NCBI GenBank assembly: GCA_025937075.1
Contig: JAICSD010000263.1
Span: 1-6,485 of the forward strand
Reading direction: 5' to 3'
Source: Vicinamibacteria bacterium
GTDB taxonomy: Bacteria; Acidobacteriota; Vicinamibacteria; Vicinamibacterales; 2-12-FULL-66-21
Length of the DNA: 6,485 bases
Shown here: positions 1,422 to 6,485 of the stretch, piece after piece
How positions within the stretch are numbered: the stretch's first letter is position 1
Layout of the letters: every line of letters begins with the position of its first letter
The notes under the pieces: generated by a model
Database searches by the model: none
What the model saw: only the letters and a program-made list of their open reading frames with translations
What the model was told of the DNA's origin: nothing
Translations under genes and position numbers: made by a program

Positions 1422-2771
<1,350 letters not shown>

Positions 2772-2795: not shown

Positions 2796-2951
2796 CTACA
2801 CCCGCGCGGCGCCGAGATCAGAGGTGCAGTACGGGCAGCGCGTTGCCGTGATCGGGATGCGCGAGACGCAGAACGCCGCGCCGATGATGACGCCGACTGC
2901 CAGGTCGAGGACGTTGCCGCGGGCCGCGAACTGCTTGAATCCCTCGAGCAT
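2796..2951 (-). pseudogene. mscL: Internally deleted MscL (mechanosensitive channel) remnant, 51-codon ORF still open
   Basis: The minus-strand frame runs from ATG (2951) to TAG (2796). Residues 1-27 match the start of MscL, including [17 protein letters not shown], the N-terminal amphipathic helix and first part of TM1. The frame then jumps to C28, and [15 protein letters not shown] follows, resembling the Cys-rich (zinc-ribbon-like) tail that, from memory, ends some MscL homologues. The rest of TM1, the periplasmic loop, TM2 and the cytoplasmic helix are absent. MscL proteins are usually about 130-150 residues, so most of the channel is missing and a tension-gated pore cannot form. The junction is near 2868-2873 (F27/C28). 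An SD AAGAGG (2962-2957) stands 5 nt before the ATG, so translation is plausible. The oxidoreductase gene starts 24 bp downstream. It may be decaying, or retained as a leader ORF or small Cys-containing membrane peptide. The MscL origin is seen clearly; the present function is unknown. Confidence 0.8.
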
Positions 2952-2956
2952 GATGA

Positions 2957-2962
2957 CCTCTT
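2957..2962 (-). promoter_or_regulatory. Ribosome binding site of the mini-MscL ORF
   Basis: It reads AAGAGG on the minus strand, 5 nt before the ATG at 2951. Its good match suggests the shortened ORF is still translated. Confidence 0.55.
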
Positions 2963-2979
2963 CGGGAAAGAGCGGGCCG

Positions 2980-3009
2980 ATATTACTCCCAACGTGAAAT
3001 TGCTAAAAA
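2980..3009 (-). promoter_or_regulatory. Candidate leftward promoter for mini-MscL and the oxidoreductase gene
   Basis: On the minus strand TTTTTA (3009-3004) and TAATAT (2985-2980) are separated by 18 bp. They match the sigma70 -35 at 3 of 6 positions and the -10 at 4 of 6. The predicted transcript would begin about 20 nt before the mini-MscL ATG. The AT-rich island is the only such stretch in this GC-rich neighbourhood, which fits a divergent promoter region. Support is by pattern only. Confidence 0.35.
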
Positions 3010-3028
3010 TTTCGCTGAGTGCTATTTT
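3000..3028 (+). promoter_or_regulatory. Candidate sigma70 promoter for the BlaI-type regulator and M56 operon
   Basis: TTGCTA (3000-3005) and TATTTT (3023-3028) are spaced by exactly 17 bp, each matching the -35 or -10 consensus at 4 of 6 positions. The predicted start site near 3035 leaves a leader of about 45 nt before the ATG at 3080. The -10 lies inside the inverted repeat 3019-3036, the arrangement expected for an autorepressing regulator. Confidence 0.5.
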
Positions 3029-3036
3029 CGTAGCAC
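3019..3036. promoter_or_regulatory. Operator-like inverted repeat, site 1
   Basis: GTGCTA and TAGCAC form perfect 6-bp arms around a 6-bp centre (TTTTCG), 44 bp before the regulator's ATG and overlapping its candidate -10. BlaI/MecI/CopY proteins bind as dimers to short dyads in their own promoters, so this is the natural operator candidate. A related 18-bp sequence (14 identical positions) occurs before the HEAT protein at 5685. An isolated TGCTA half-site also occurs at 3001-3005. Known BlaI/CopY operators centre on TACA/TGTA; this dyad differs, so the assignment is inference. Confidence 0.55.
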
Positions 3037-3079
3037 CTTTTCGGCGCCCGCTTCGTCTAAGCCTGTAGCCGAACGCGCC

Positions 3080-3466
3080 ATGACCACGAACCACCGCGAT
3101 CTCAGCCGCCGGGAACGGCAGATTCTGGATATCCTCTACCAACACGGCCGGGCGACCGCGGCCGAGGTGCAGGCTGCGCTGCCCGAACCGCCGAGCTATT
3201 CGGCGGTTCGCGCGCTCTTGCGTATTCTGGAAGACAAAGGCCACGTCCGCCACGAGCAGGACGGCCCGCGGTACGTCTACGTTCCCACGCTGGGCCGCGA
3301 GAACGCGAAGCGGTCCGCGCTTCGGCACATTCTGCAGACATTCTTCGACGGGTCCGCCGAGCAGGCGATCTCCGCGCTGCTCGACGGCTCGTCCGCGAAG
3401 CTTTCCGGGGCGGAGCTCGATCGGCTCGCGCGTCTGATCGAGAGCGCTCGCAAGAGCGGGGTATAG
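3080..3466 (+). CDS. BlaI/MecI/CopY-family transcriptional repressor
   Basis: This 128-residue protein has the usual length for the family. A winged helix-turn-helix spans about residues 8-70: LSRRERQILDILY opens it, PPSYSAVRALLRILEDKGH (37-55) is the recognition-helix region, and HEQDGPRYVYVPT (58-70) is the wing. Residues 76-124 form the dimerisation part, including LRHILQTFFDGS, the conserved segment near which BlaI/MecI are cleaved. In BlaI/MecI systems the repressor dimer blocks its own operon and target genes until the partner membrane protease responds to a signal. The M56 gene starts 4 bp after this stop, which fits such a pair. No good SD precedes the ATG at 3080, suggesting weak translation. 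Likely autoregulated through the dyad at 3019-3036. The family is certain; the inducing signal is not beta-lactam by any visible evidence. Confidence 0.95.
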   Translation: MTTNHRDLSRRERQILDILYQHGRATAAEVQAALPEPPSYSAVRALLRILEDKGHVRHEQDGPRYVYVPTLGRENAKRSALRHILQTFFDGSAEQAISALLDGSSAKLSGAELDRLARLIESARKSGV

Positions 3467-3470
3467 ATCA

Positions 3471-5627
3471 ATGGACATCGCTCACCTGCCGCTCGCGATC
3501 GACGCGGCGATCAAGTCCTCCGTCGTCCTGGCGGGCACATTTGCCGCCGCGTGGCTGCTCCGGCGCGCGTCCGCCGCGGCGCGGCACCTGGCGTGGGCGC
3601 TCGGTCTTGCGGGTACGCTGCTGGTGCCCGCGCTGTCTGTCGGGCTGCCTCGGTGGGAAGTGCCGCTCGTCCGCGTGAGCTCGCCTGAATCGGCGCCAGT
3701 GGCCGCCCCGGCGCAGACTTCCGCGATCGTCCATCGGCCACATGCAGCGATCGCACGCGCCGATCACGGTGGGACAGTCCAGGCGCCCCCGATGTCGACG
3801 GCATCCTCGCAGGCGGAAACATCTGCGCCCCGCGCCGCCACGTTCGGCGTCGACCTTGGTTCGCTGCCCTGGACGACGCTGCTGCTGATCGGCTGGGCGG
3901 CAGGCGCGGTGATCGTCCTCGGACGCGTGCTGCTGGGCCTCGCCGCGGTGCAGTGGATCTCGCGCCGGACGGCGGTCGTCAGCGACGCGCCGTGGAGCGC
4001 GCAGGCGCGCGCCCTTGCGGCGTCGCTCGGTCTGACGCGCGTGCGGTTTCTGCGTTCGTCGAACGCCTCGATGCCGATGGCGTGGGGAATCCTGCGCGCC
4101 TCGATCCTCATGCCGGCCGACGTGGACGCCTGGTCCGCGGATCGCCTGCGCATCGTCCTGCTGCACGAGCTCGCGCACGTGAAGCGCCGCGACTGCGCCA
4201 CGCACGTCTTCGCGCAGATCGCGTGCGCCGTCTACTGGTTCAATCCGCTCGCGTGGATTGCCGCGCGCCGCCTGCGCACCGAACGCGAGCGCGCGTGCGA
4301 TGATCTCGTGCTCTCGGCCGGCACGCGCGGGTCCGACTACGCGAACGAGCTGCTCGAGGTTGCGCGTGTGATGCGTGCCGGCCGTTTCCCCGCCGTGCTC
4401 GCGGGCGCCACGCTGGCGATGGCGCATCGATCGCAGCTCGAAGGGCGCCTCATCGCGATTCTCGATCCGACGCTTTCGCGCCACGGCCTCTCCCGTCTGC
4501 GCGCGGCCGCCGGCACCGCGCTCTTCGCGCTGCTGCTCGTGCCGATTGCGTCGCTGCAGCCGTGGGTCGAGGAACCGGAGGCGCTGCACGCCGCCGCGAT
4601 GAAGTCGCCGGCGCAGCCCATGCCGCAGCCGGCGCCAGCGCCGCAGCCGCAGGCCGCGCCCCAGCGCGAGAAGGCGGTTGCGATCGAACACGCGCACACG
4701 AGCGTTCACACCACAAGTGCGGAAACGGTCGGCTCCCGGATCGCGAACAGCGTTTCGACGTCGATCGCAAACAGCGTCGCCGCAACGGCCGGAGATATTG
4801 CCGGCAATGTGGCGGAGAGCGTCGTCGATCCCGTGGTGGATGCGGCGGGCGTGCAGGCGGGCGAAAAGGGGTCGACCGCCGATCCTCGCAGACTCAACGC
4901 CCTGATCGAAGCGCTGAAAGACTCCGATCGCGAAGTGCGGGAGACCGCGCTCGCCGCGCTCGCGGAGATGCGCGACCCGCGCGTCTTCGATCCGTTGACT
5001 GCCGCGCTCAAGGACGCCAGCCCCGATATCCGCCAGCAGGCGGCGTTCGGCCTCGGCCAGTTGCGCGATGGCCGCGCCATCGAGCCGCTGACCGCGGCCT
5101 TGAAGGACGCCAACGCGGACGTGCGCGAGCAGGCGGCGTTCGCACTGGGACAGCTGCGCGCGAAGGCATCTGTGCCGGCGTTGTCCACCGCGCTGAAGGA
5201 CACCGATGCAGACGTCCGCGAACAGGCCGTGTTCGCCCTGGGTCAGATTCGCGACGCCAGCGCAATCGACGCGATCGCGCCTGCGCTGCACGACACCGAC
5301 GCCAACGTCCGCGAGCAGGCGGCCTTCGCGCTCGGACAGATCCGCGATCACCGCGCCGTCGAGCCGCTCATCTCCGCGCTGAAGGACGAGAAGCCCAATG
5401 TGCGCGAGCAGGCGGCATTCGCGCTCGGCCAGCTTCGCGACGGCCGCGCCGTCGAGGCGCTCGTGATTGCGCTGAAGGACGCCACGCCTGACGTCCGCGA
5501 GCAGGCGGCGTTCGCCCTGGGTCAGATTCGCGACCCGCGCGCCATCGATGGTCTGACCGCCGCGCTGAAGGACGCGAATTCGTCCGTTCGCCAGCAGGCA
5601 GCATTCGCGCTCGGCCAAATCCGCTAG
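3471..5627 (+). CDS. BlaR1-like M56 membrane metallopeptidase with C-terminal HEAT-repeat array
   Basis: The product has 718 residues; ATG at 3471 lies 4 bp after the repressor stop. Predicted membrane helices are at about 14-30, 40-58, 134-160 and 345-362. The M56 domain between helices 3 and 4 carries the zinc motif HELAH (H232, E233, H236). It also has FNPLAWIAARRLRTERERACDD, where E273 (or E271) is the likely third zinc ligand. In BlaR1 this cytoplasmic domain acts on the repressor after a signal. After helix 4 comes a Pro/Ala/Gln-rich linker (380-400) and an Ala/Ser/Val stretch with IANSV twice (424-460). Eight 31-residue HEAT repeats (475-718) follow, consensus ALKDxxxxVREQAAFALGQIRD. 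By BlaR1 topology the HEAT array would be outside the cytoplasmic membrane, in the place of the penicillin-binding sensor. HEAT arrays bind proteins, so a protein ligand is inferred. The array ends abruptly four residues short of a full repeat. Confidence 0.93.
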   Translation: MDIAHLPLAIDAAIKSSVVLAGTFAAAWLLRRASAAARHLAWALGLAGTLLVPALSVGLPRWEVPLVRVSSPESAPVAAPAQTSAIVHRPHAAIARADHGGTVQAPPMSTASSQAETSAPRAATFGVDLGSLPWTTLLLIGWAAGAVIVLGRVLLGLAAVQWISRRTAVVSDAPWSAQARALAASLGLTRVRFLRSSNASMPMAWGILRASILMPADVDAWSADRLRIVLLHELAHVKRRDCATHVFAQIACAVYWFNPLAWIAARRLRTERERACDDLVLSAGTRGSDYANELLEVARVMRAGRFPAVLAGATLAMAHRSQLEGRLIAILDPTLSRHGLSRLRAAAGTALFALLLVPIASLQPWVEEPEALHAAAMKSPAQPMPQPAPAPQPQAAPQREKAVAIEHAHTSVHTTSAETVGSRIANSVSTSIANSVAATAGDIAGNVAESVVDPVVDAAGVQAGEKGSTADPRRLNALIEALKDSDREVRETALAALAEMRDPRVFDPLTAALKDASPDIRQQAAFGLGQLRDGRAIEPLTAALKDANADVREQAAFALGQLRAKASVPALSTALKDTDADVREQAVFALGQIRDASAIDAIAPALHDTDANVREQAAFALGQIRDHRAVEPLISALKDEKPNVREQAAFALGQLRDGRAVEALVIALKDATPDVREQAAFALGQIRDPRAIDGLTAALKDANSSVRQQAAFALGQIR
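4893..5624 (+). repeat. Tandem 93-bp coding repeats (eight HEAT units)
   Basis: Eight in-frame units of 31 codons (the last is 27) start at 4893 and end at the stop codon of the M56 gene. Similarity extends to the DNA. For example, 25 identical bases occur at 5231-5255 (unit 4) and 5510-5534 (unit 7), exactly three units (279 bp) apart. This suggests growth or homogenisation by recombination among units. Confidence 0.9.
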
Positions 5628-5684: not shown

Positions 5685-5702
5685 ATGCTGTTTTCTTAGC
5701 AG
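5685..5702. promoter_or_regulatory. Operator-like sequence, site 2, before the exported HEAT protein
   Basis: ATGCTGTTTTCTTAGCAG matches site 1 (3019-3036) at 14 of 18 positions, sharing the pattern TGCTnTTTTCnTAGCA. The dyad arms TGCT/AGCA are intact. It ends at the SD (AGGAG, 5701-5705) and lies 10 bp before the ATG. Binding here would block elongation or initiation close to the start rather than cover an obvious -10; a TTGTCA (-35-like) lies at 5676-5681 but no -10 fits it well. The shared centre, not only the arms, makes a common binding protein plausible. Confidence 0.5.
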
Positions 5703-5712: not shown

Positions 5713-6441
5713 ATGAGTCCCGTCACCGTCTTCTTCCGCACGCTCCTCCGATCGAGCGCGCTCTTCCTCGGCGTTGCCGCAGTGTTCCTGCATCCGCCGG
5801 CCGACTGGCGCGCCGCGTCGCAGATGGTCGTCGGCGCGCAGCAAGCCGCGTCGGAGCAGGCGATTGACGGACTCATCGCGCTCCTGAAGGACACGGACGC
5901 GGGCGTTCGCCGCCAGGCGGCGCGTTCGCTCGCCGAACTGGGCAGCACGCGCGCCGTGCCGGCGCTGGCCGCGGCCATCAAAGACGCCGACGTCGACGTC
6001 CGCGCGTCGGTCGTCAGCGCGCTGGGTGACCTGAACGATCCGCGATCGAGCGCCGCGCTGCGCGAAGCGCTGAAGGACGACTCGGTCGCCGTACGCGCGC
6101 GCGCGGCATCGGCGCTCGGCGATCTCGGCGACGCGACCGCGGTTGATGCGCTCATCATCGCGGCGCACGACAAGAGCCCGGACGTCCGCAAGCGAGCCAT
6201 CGCGGCGCTCGGCGATATTCACGATCCCAAGGCCATGGAGACGCTGACGCAGGCGTTGAAGGATGAAGATCCGGCGATTCGGCGCGCGGCGGCCGCGGCG
6301 ATTGCGGATCTGGACGGCGATAACGATGGAGCAGGCCACAACGTGCCGCATCCACACCCGCACCCGCACCCGCACCCACACCCCAACCCGAACCCGAATC
6401 CGCACCCGCACCCGAACACGCACCCGCTGAGGATTCGATGA
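5713..6441 (+). CDS. Exported or membrane-anchored HEAT-repeat protein with His-Pro-rich tail
   Basis: The product has 242 residues from the ATG at 5713. An N-terminal signal peptide or anchor is seen at 1-26 (Arg 9 and 13, hydrophobic SALFLGVAAVFL). Five HEAT repeats of about 31 residues follow (51-81, 82-112, 113-143, 144-174, 175-about 200), with consensus ALKDxDxxVRxxAxxALGDL. These resemble but are distinct from the REQAAFALGQ repeats of the M56 protein. A DLDGDNDG stretch (199-206) looks like an acidic calcium-type loop. The tail 212-238 alternates His-Pro and Asn-Pro, with nine His. No catalytic motif is visible; the protein is probably a scaffold or binding partner outside the membrane. 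The tail could bind Zn, Ni or Cu, or act as a stiff spacer. It lies 85 bp after the M56 stop on the same strand, with a second operator-like site before it, so regulation by the BlaI-type repressor is likely. The next gene overlaps its stop. Confidence 0.85.
   Translation: MSPVTVFFRTLLRSSALFLGVAAVFLHPPADWRAASQMVVGAQQAASEQAIDGLIALLKDTDAGVRRQAARSLAELGSTRAVPALAAAIKDADVDVRASVVSALGDLNDPRSSAALREALKDDSVAVRARAASALGDLGDATAVDALIIAAHDKSPDVRKRAIAALGDIHDPKAMETLTQALKDEDPAIRRAAAAAIADLDGDNDGAGHNVPHPHPHPHPHPHPNPNPNPHPHPNTHPLRIR
6343..6426 (+). repeat. Hexanucleotide-type repeat (CACCCG-like) encoding the His/Asn-Pro tail
   Basis: Degenerate copies of CACCCG, with variants CACCCA, CACCCC, AACCCG and AATCCG, encode His-Pro and Asn-Pro pairs. 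The 6-bp unit means slippage would change tail length without breaking the frame or the overlap with the next gene. Confidence 0.85.
6429..6432 (+). promoter_or_regulatory. Ribosome binding site of the last, partial gene
   Basis: GAGG lies 5 nt before the ATG at 6438 and 8 nt before the in-frame ATG at 6441. It is inside the last codons of the HEAT protein, indicating translational coupling. Confidence 0.55.
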
Positions 6442-6485
6442 TGCCGCTCGCAGCGATGCTCGCCGTTGCCATGATCGTCACCGTC
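6438..6485 (+). CDS. Start of a membrane or exported protein (3' end outside window)
   Basis: Sixteen codons are visible, MMPLAAMLAVAMIVTV, a hydrophobic start typical of a signal peptide or first membrane helix. The ATG at 6438 (or 6441, same frame) overlaps the HEAT-protein stop in an ATGA arrangement, with GAGG just upstream, so the two genes are probably translated from one message. The family cannot be told. By its position it is a further member of the HEAT/M56 cluster. Confidence 0.6.
   Translation, partial: MMPLAAMLAVAMIVTV

Follow-up and report, generated by a model that had tools for sequence, protein, structure and literature searches.

A BlaI-M56 locus with a HEAT-repeat array in place of the penicillin sensor and a neighbouring HEAT-protein gene

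Genes and putative operators of the locus

The DNA analysed here is a 6.5-kb stretch (6,485 bp, hereafter the window) from a Vicinamibacteria bacterium, probably one living in soil, and relatives are annotated as Vicinamibacterales or Acidobacteria. Genes run in the order FtsX-type permease (its end), phosphatase, oxidoreductase, blaI, M56 receptor, HEAT gene and the start of another gene. Upstream of blaI, the phosphatase (812-1411) is DSP/PTP-like, with matches to PTP-NADK and Y_phosphatase2, and the oxidoreductase (1422-2771, minus strand) is of the Gfo/Idh/MocA type, with a start that looks Tat-like by eye (MHRREFLKTSAAALAASPF).

At the core of the locus lies a repressor-receptor pair. The blaI gene (3080-3466, plus strand) encodes a repressor of 128 aa that matches the winged-helix family PF03965 at 98.5 bits (cut-off 22.6). 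After a gap of 4 bp, the receptor gene (3471-5627, plus strand) encodes 718 aa, and the match of its M56 domain to PF05569 (residues 108-330, 3792-4460) scores 102.7 bits against a gathering cut-off of 31, with the HELAH motif at 4164-4178. The next gene (5713-6441, plus strand), which we call the output gene, encodes a membrane-anchored HEAT protein of 242 aa (HEAT_2, 121.3 bits) with a (His/Asn-Pro)n tail. Across its family the N-terminus is a strongly kept membrane anchor (MSPVTVFFRTLLKSSAIFxGAAAIFLHPSLEW) and the C-terminus a (His/Asn/Arg-Pro)n tail. The AlphaFold2 model of the window's output protein (mean pLDDT 82.8) has a helix at residues 3-25, a solenoid at pLDDT 96-98 and a loose tail. 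A further gene (6438-6485, plus strand), of which the window holds the first codons, overlaps the output gene by ATGA; at this place L001, L002 and L003 carry a second HEAT gene.

A likely blaI promoter, TTGCTA-17 bp-TATTTT (3000-3035, plus strand), was read by eye. It has one exact match in the window and none in 200 shuffles; a sigma-70 consensus scan of 2900-3100 returned no promoter. Its second hexamer is covered by a palindrome, TGCTATTTTCGTAGCA (3020-3035), whose arms GTGCTA/TAGCAC lie at 3019-3024 and 3031-3036, and which we take as putative operator 1. Putative operator 2, TGCTGTTTTCTTAGCA (5686-5701), stands directly 5' of the GGAG ribosome-binding site of the output gene. When three mismatches are allowed, the window contains these two matches and no other, against 0.04 expected; a pair of matches never arose in 200 shuffles. 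The operon and its product gene would thus each carry the same type of palindromic site, an arrangement that recurs among relatives: promoter and operator 1 are arranged alike in L001, L002 and L130 (not in L003 or L004), and operator 2 is found in the same place in L001, L002, L003, L130, L132, L135 and L136. Judged by its letters, operator 1 is of a widespread type, because TGCT...AGCA half-site palindromes precede blaI at many M56 loci of other phyla, including 39 of 73 M56 loci without HEAT repeats. The special part is the putative operator 2; of 51 M56 loci without HEAT, one had a site in the 300 bp that follow the receptor. BlaI/MecI operators of Gram-positive bacteria are of the TACA/TGTA type, in contrast to the TGCTA...TAGCA found here.

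Protease, topology and HEAT array of the receptor

The BlaR1/BlaI system of Staphylococcus aureus (8exp, 8exs; PMC9834060) shares several parts with this locus: the M56 gluzincin active-site residues, four membrane helices, an outer loop, an autocleavage loop with S/T at P1, an adjoining BlaI-type repressor, operators on both its own operon and a product gene, and a sensor fold related to the product fold. That paper names H201, E202, H205, D210, E242, D246, Y261 and R294 as catalytic or supporting residues of BlaR1. Aligned with 8exs, these become H232, E233, H236, D241, E273, D277, Y290 and R326 of the receptor. That is, the HExxH motif, the downstream Glu of the zinc site and the supporting residues are all present, and all eight positions are invariant in 51 of 51 aligned relatives (chosen from 120 listed). 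Together with the two profile matches, this confirms the original prediction of an M56 domain with HELAH next to a BlaI-type repressor.

The two systems differ at the candidate cut sites. The candidate autocleavage bond T314-L315 (4410-4415) aligns with S283-F284 of BlaR1. Position 314 is filled by S or T (36 and 15 of the 51 rows), and L315 is invariant. In the repressor, the sequence ALLD (99-102) is invariant across 10 aligned homologues, and L100 aligns with F102 of S. aureus BlaI (1sd4), so that the bond N101-F102 would correspond to A99-L100, although this alignment is weak (E 8e-5). Both candidate P1' places thus hold an invariant Leu (L315 in 51 rows, L100 in 10), where the S. aureus system has Phe. 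Since Phe at the BlaI cut site is called almost invariant in the excerpted text of PMC9834060, the Leu in the repressor is a real difference. We would guess that the protease pocket is adapted to Leu.

The receptor is predicted to span the membrane four times (helices 3-29, 35-58, 134-166 and 342-361 in the structure model). Its loop 28-42 is basic, with three K/R and no D/E, and the stretch after helix 4 starts acidic. This fits the Nout/Cout plan given for BlaR1 (PMC9834060) and would place the array outside the membrane. Between helices 2 and 3, in the place of EL1 of BlaR1, residues 59-133 (3645-3869) would form an outer loop that is mostly disordered in the model, and residues 370-467 (4578-4871, pLDDT < 50) form a linker between helix 4 and the array. 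The array itself consists of eight 31-residue HEAT repeats (residues 471-718, 4881-5624), on which the profile match, the repeat units and the model agree. Tandem two-helix units of this length are what is expected of a PBS/alphaRep-type solenoid. The C-terminal region had been read as a linker plus eight HEAT repeats without a penicillin sensor, and the external position of the array had been drawn from BlaR1; the first reading holds, and the second gains support from the predicted topology, with the structure model likewise showing a solenoid of two-helix units.

HEAT repeats are common to the receptor and to the lyases CpcE/CpcF and NblB. We rejected a HEAT phycobilin lyase identity for the receptor, whose scores fall far under the curated NCBIfam cut-offs (CpcE, 94.6 against 330 bits; NblB, 86.4 against 300). 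Classical BlaR1 identity was rejected as well: the penicillin-binding sensor is missing, and the match to the NCBIfam model blaR1_generic (91.9 against 400 bits) covers the N-terminal part only. The Pfam matches of the receptor include no penicillin-binding family, and HEAT repeats stand in its place. In a structure search with the receptor model, BlaR1 was not listed for the protease part, because solenoid matches fill the list.

The receptor might nevertheless still respond, like BlaR1, to beta-lactams or to the cell wall, if some other part of the protein recognized the drug or a muropeptide. Protease and repressor do resemble the BlaR1/BlaI families, and the Bacillus licheniformis system is triggered by a peptidoglycan fragment (PMC3305447). 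We give this reading very little credence, as the receptor has no penicillin-binding domain and neither a beta-lactamase nor a penicillin-binding protein occurs among the Pfam-searched genes of the window and neighbouring loci (part of the neighbours).

What the array may do instead is suggested by its inner face. HEAT repeats usually bind proteins. In the artificial alphaRep binders, the varied, target-binding positions are 18, 19, 22, 23, 26 and 30 (PMC3754942, in excerpt), which, matched by eye, are 17, 18, 21, 22, 25 and 29 in our unit numbering. Across 667 units from the 120 listed relatives of the receptor, positions 21, 22, 25 and 29 are E/Q (94%), Q (90%), F (95%) and Q (96%), whereas the same positions are mixed in 353 units of the HEAT proteins found with the output. 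Entropy there is 0.3-1.2 bits in receptor units against 2.9-3.4 bits in output-type units; phylogeny accounts for part of this contrast, since the relatives in one set are not as close to each other as those in the other. Where alphaReps are artificial and carry a varied face, the array described here is natural, is fused to a membrane protease and keeps its inner face conserved, which likely marks a binding surface within the window's clade. More distant receptors (L006, L044, L132, L133, L135, L136 and L139) have other residues on the array face, and the array of L134 has S at unit position 25. The E/Q-Q-F-Q face is therefore a feature of the clade around the window, and other clades may have other ligands. 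The proposal that the receptor senses a protein or envelope state rather than a beta-lactam stands in part: no penicillin sensor is present, and a conserved face of the target-binding type is in keeping with a protein or peptide as the signal.

Recurrence of the layout and extent of the putative regulon

The layout is not peculiar to the window. A HEAT gene lies within 3 kb at 11 of 17 M56-HEAT loci (window included), or 11 of the 16 assessable ones once L005, whose contig ends with the receptor, is set aside; tabulating M56-HEAT fusions with their neighbours therefore bears out a recurrent arrangement. Ten of these HEAT neighbours follow the receptor and one (L137) precedes blaI. An operator-like site occurs at the HEAT gene in nine of the 11 loci, and in L131 and L138 it lies 22 and 14 bp after the receptor gene instead. 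The five assessable loci without a HEAT neighbour are L006 (1.4 kb seen), L019, L044, L133 and L139; directly behind the receptor, L133 carries a multihaem cytochrome c-type protein (8582-9838). Among M56 loci without HEAT, a HEAT gene within 3 kb downstream was found in none of 51 (those of 73 in which 1 kb or more follows the receptor), while three of seven HEAT loci in that comparison's own set had a HEAT neighbour, one of those loci being cut off by its contig. HEAT proteins are common, which weakens the neighbour evidence. Gene order, operator letters, protease residues and recurrence can all be read from the sequences. The earlier reader had missed both putative operators, the probably co-regulated HEAT gene, the conservation of the locus in relatives and the mscL gene that adjoins blaI in the closest relatives.

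Beyond the locus, operator-like sites are scarce. Five close genomes, scanned with the operator patterns, yielded 3 and 8 sites, nine of these 11 at the locus, with 0 and 4 in reversed controls; seven more distant genomes gave 15 sites, 13 of them at the locus, against one in the reversed control. Over all 12 genomes this comes to 26 sites, 22 at the locus and 4 elsewhere against 5 for reversed patterns; because the patterns were drawn from locus sites, matches at the locus are expected and only the scarcity elsewhere is informative. Such scans would miss weaker sites: G187 has no pattern match, though its locus has a related near site. Because sites outside the locus are no more frequent than in the reversed control, the regulon looks local, as far as pattern matches tell, and we rejected a wide regulon on the same numbers.

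The mscL gene deserves separate mention. An intact copy (PF01741) diverges from blaI, with operator 1 between the two, in L001, L002 and L130. It is cut in L003, and in the window a remnant (2811-2951, minus strand), found by tblastn with the L001 MscL, keeps residues 1-27 and 124-144 in one frame around an internal in-frame deletion that may be genuine or may stem from the assembly. In L004 a different gene occupies this place, and none of the other loci searched gave a tblastn match to mscL. Common descent may explain why mscL lies here, or the gene may be part of the response. One rival reading has the system respond to membrane tension or turgor, the signal passing through the helices, the outer loop or the linker and the array only anchoring or dimerizing the receptor; mscL would then belong to the response. 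Besides the divergent mscL (partial in L003 and the window), this is favoured by signalling of BlaR1 via its outer loop and helix 3, as described in excerpts of PMC9834060. We nevertheless think it quite unlikely: mscL is broken in the window, missing in L004 and at none of the other loci searched, the L001 operator lies about 300 bp from it, and conservation of the array is second only to that of the protease, which would not be required of a passive anchor.

Kinship of sensor and neighbour extends to other M56 loci. A neighbour homologous to the receptor's C-terminus lies within 3.5 kb at 16 of 66 loci, against a mean of 2.5 and a largest value of 8 in 2000 shuffles of the loci; left out of this count are L015, L028 and L066 (the sensor-like ORF overlaps the M56 ORF, likely by frame breaks), L134 (the same locus as L019), and L131 and L005 (less than 600 bases behind the receptor). 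Without the HEAT loci, seven of 52 have such a neighbour (shuffled mean 0.7, largest 4) and 45 have none. Four of the seven form one verrucomicrobial family (L025, L042, L045 and L053), so that besides HEAT there are four independent cases, namely that family, L040, L050 and L072. All keep the plan of an M56 receptor with an exchanged C-terminus next to BlaI, with other domains. In the verrucomicrobial family, an unnamed C-terminal domain is 45-63% identical with the neighbouring protein, which begins like a lipoprotein in L025 and L053; L042 also carries a SecDF_P1_head domain. The neighbour of L025, L042 and L053 is encoded ahead of blaI, with no sign of a second operator. A receptor with a DUF4440/SnoaL-like C-terminus (9617-11128) is followed in L040 by a separate DUF4440 protein (11141-11596, 26% identity). 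L050 has carboxypeptidase-regulatory domains in both the receptor C-terminus and the neighbour, and in L072, from Bacteroidetes, the receptor (9491-11893) and the next gene (11912-13093) share an unnamed region of 246 residues at 28% identity. HEAT and carboxypeptidase-regulatory domains are common, which weakens the single cases.

The pair could also be decayed or constitutive, with no signalling role and a HEAT neighbour by coincidence, given how common HEAT proteins are and that the adjoining mscL is broken in the window. Protease residues invariant in 51 relatives, the recurrence of the second operator and the shuffle control make this highly improbable.

A probable proteolytic relay with an exchanged sensor

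We consider it probable that the locus encodes a proteolytic relay of the BlaR1 type whose sensor has been exchanged: a HEAT array outside the membrane would detect a protein or peptide of the envelope, and cleavage of BlaI would induce HEAT proteins. The locus would be kept off by BlaI bound to operator 1, over its own promoter, and to operator 2, where the next gene begins. Four helices would hold the receptor in the inner membrane; its zinc protease would face the cytoplasm and its HEAT solenoid the periplasm. When an envelope protein or peptide binds to the conserved inner face, or leaves it, helices 3 and 4 may move and free the active site from the receptor's own loop (T314-L315). The freed protease would cut BlaI at A99-L100 and so release it from the DNA, allowing expression of the repressor-receptor operon and of the membrane-anchored HEAT protein(s). 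We infer that the HEAT product has a role in this relay. On this reading, the receptor works like BlaR1 but is no beta-lactam receptor. For an external HEAT sensor with a local regulon of HEAT proteins, the anatomy is well supported and the working switch moderately so.

The sensor domain of BlaR1 is related to class D beta-lactamases. By analogy, the shared fold of sensor and product at this locus suggests that the two may handle the same ligand or each other, with a HEAT solenoid in place of the class D beta-lactamase-like sensor and a HEAT protein in place of BlaZ/PBP2a as the product. One specific form of this idea is self-monitoring: the array binds the HEAT output itself, through its solenoid or its Pro-rich tail, and the switch gauges free output in the envelope as a homeostat. 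The excess of homologous neighbours over shuffled loci favours it, as does the mutual binding of the alphaReps A3 and bA3-2 through their concave faces (PMC3754942, in excerpt). In L132, L135 and L136, Q22 and R29, and often also W25, occur in both the sensor and the output array, and position 31 is mostly R against E/D. Of 202 neighbouring ORFs, 13 have tails of (xP)5 or longer; each of the 13 is a HEAT protein from these loci, and four are receptors. On the other hand, the output of L138 has no tail, a tail is found in none of the 120 listed receptor relatives, and gene duplication could give the same homology without contact. The window's output face (R, mixed, mixed, D/E) differs from the receptor face, so the idea of a same ligand is weak for this output. 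Self-monitoring is, on this evidence, unlikely. Rather doubtful too, though offered as a tentative generalization, is the view that sensing of the own product is general among M56 receptors. A captured copy of the output would serve as the sensor, and each receptor would form a twin circuit with its output (HEAT/HEAT at this locus; DUF4440/DUF4440, carboxypeptidase-regulatory repeats and others elsewhere). BlaR1, with a sensor resembling beta-lactamases, would be one case of the rule, and the array here would bind the HEAT output or a common ligand and set the level of the output through BlaI proteolysis.

The open-licence PMC papers that we searched held nothing on M56-HEAT receptors. In staphylococci, BlaR1 is the familiar switch by which the cell senses penicillin. 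In the relay that we favour, this antibiotic switch appears to have been rewired to a different signal. The locus suggests that the BlaI-M56 relay is a general switch across the membrane that accepts plug-in sensors, here a HEAT solenoid with a regulon that seems narrowed mainly to HEAT envelope proteins, and the likeness of sensor and product may serve as a rule for guessing what hundreds of so far unstudied M56 proteins sense or bind.
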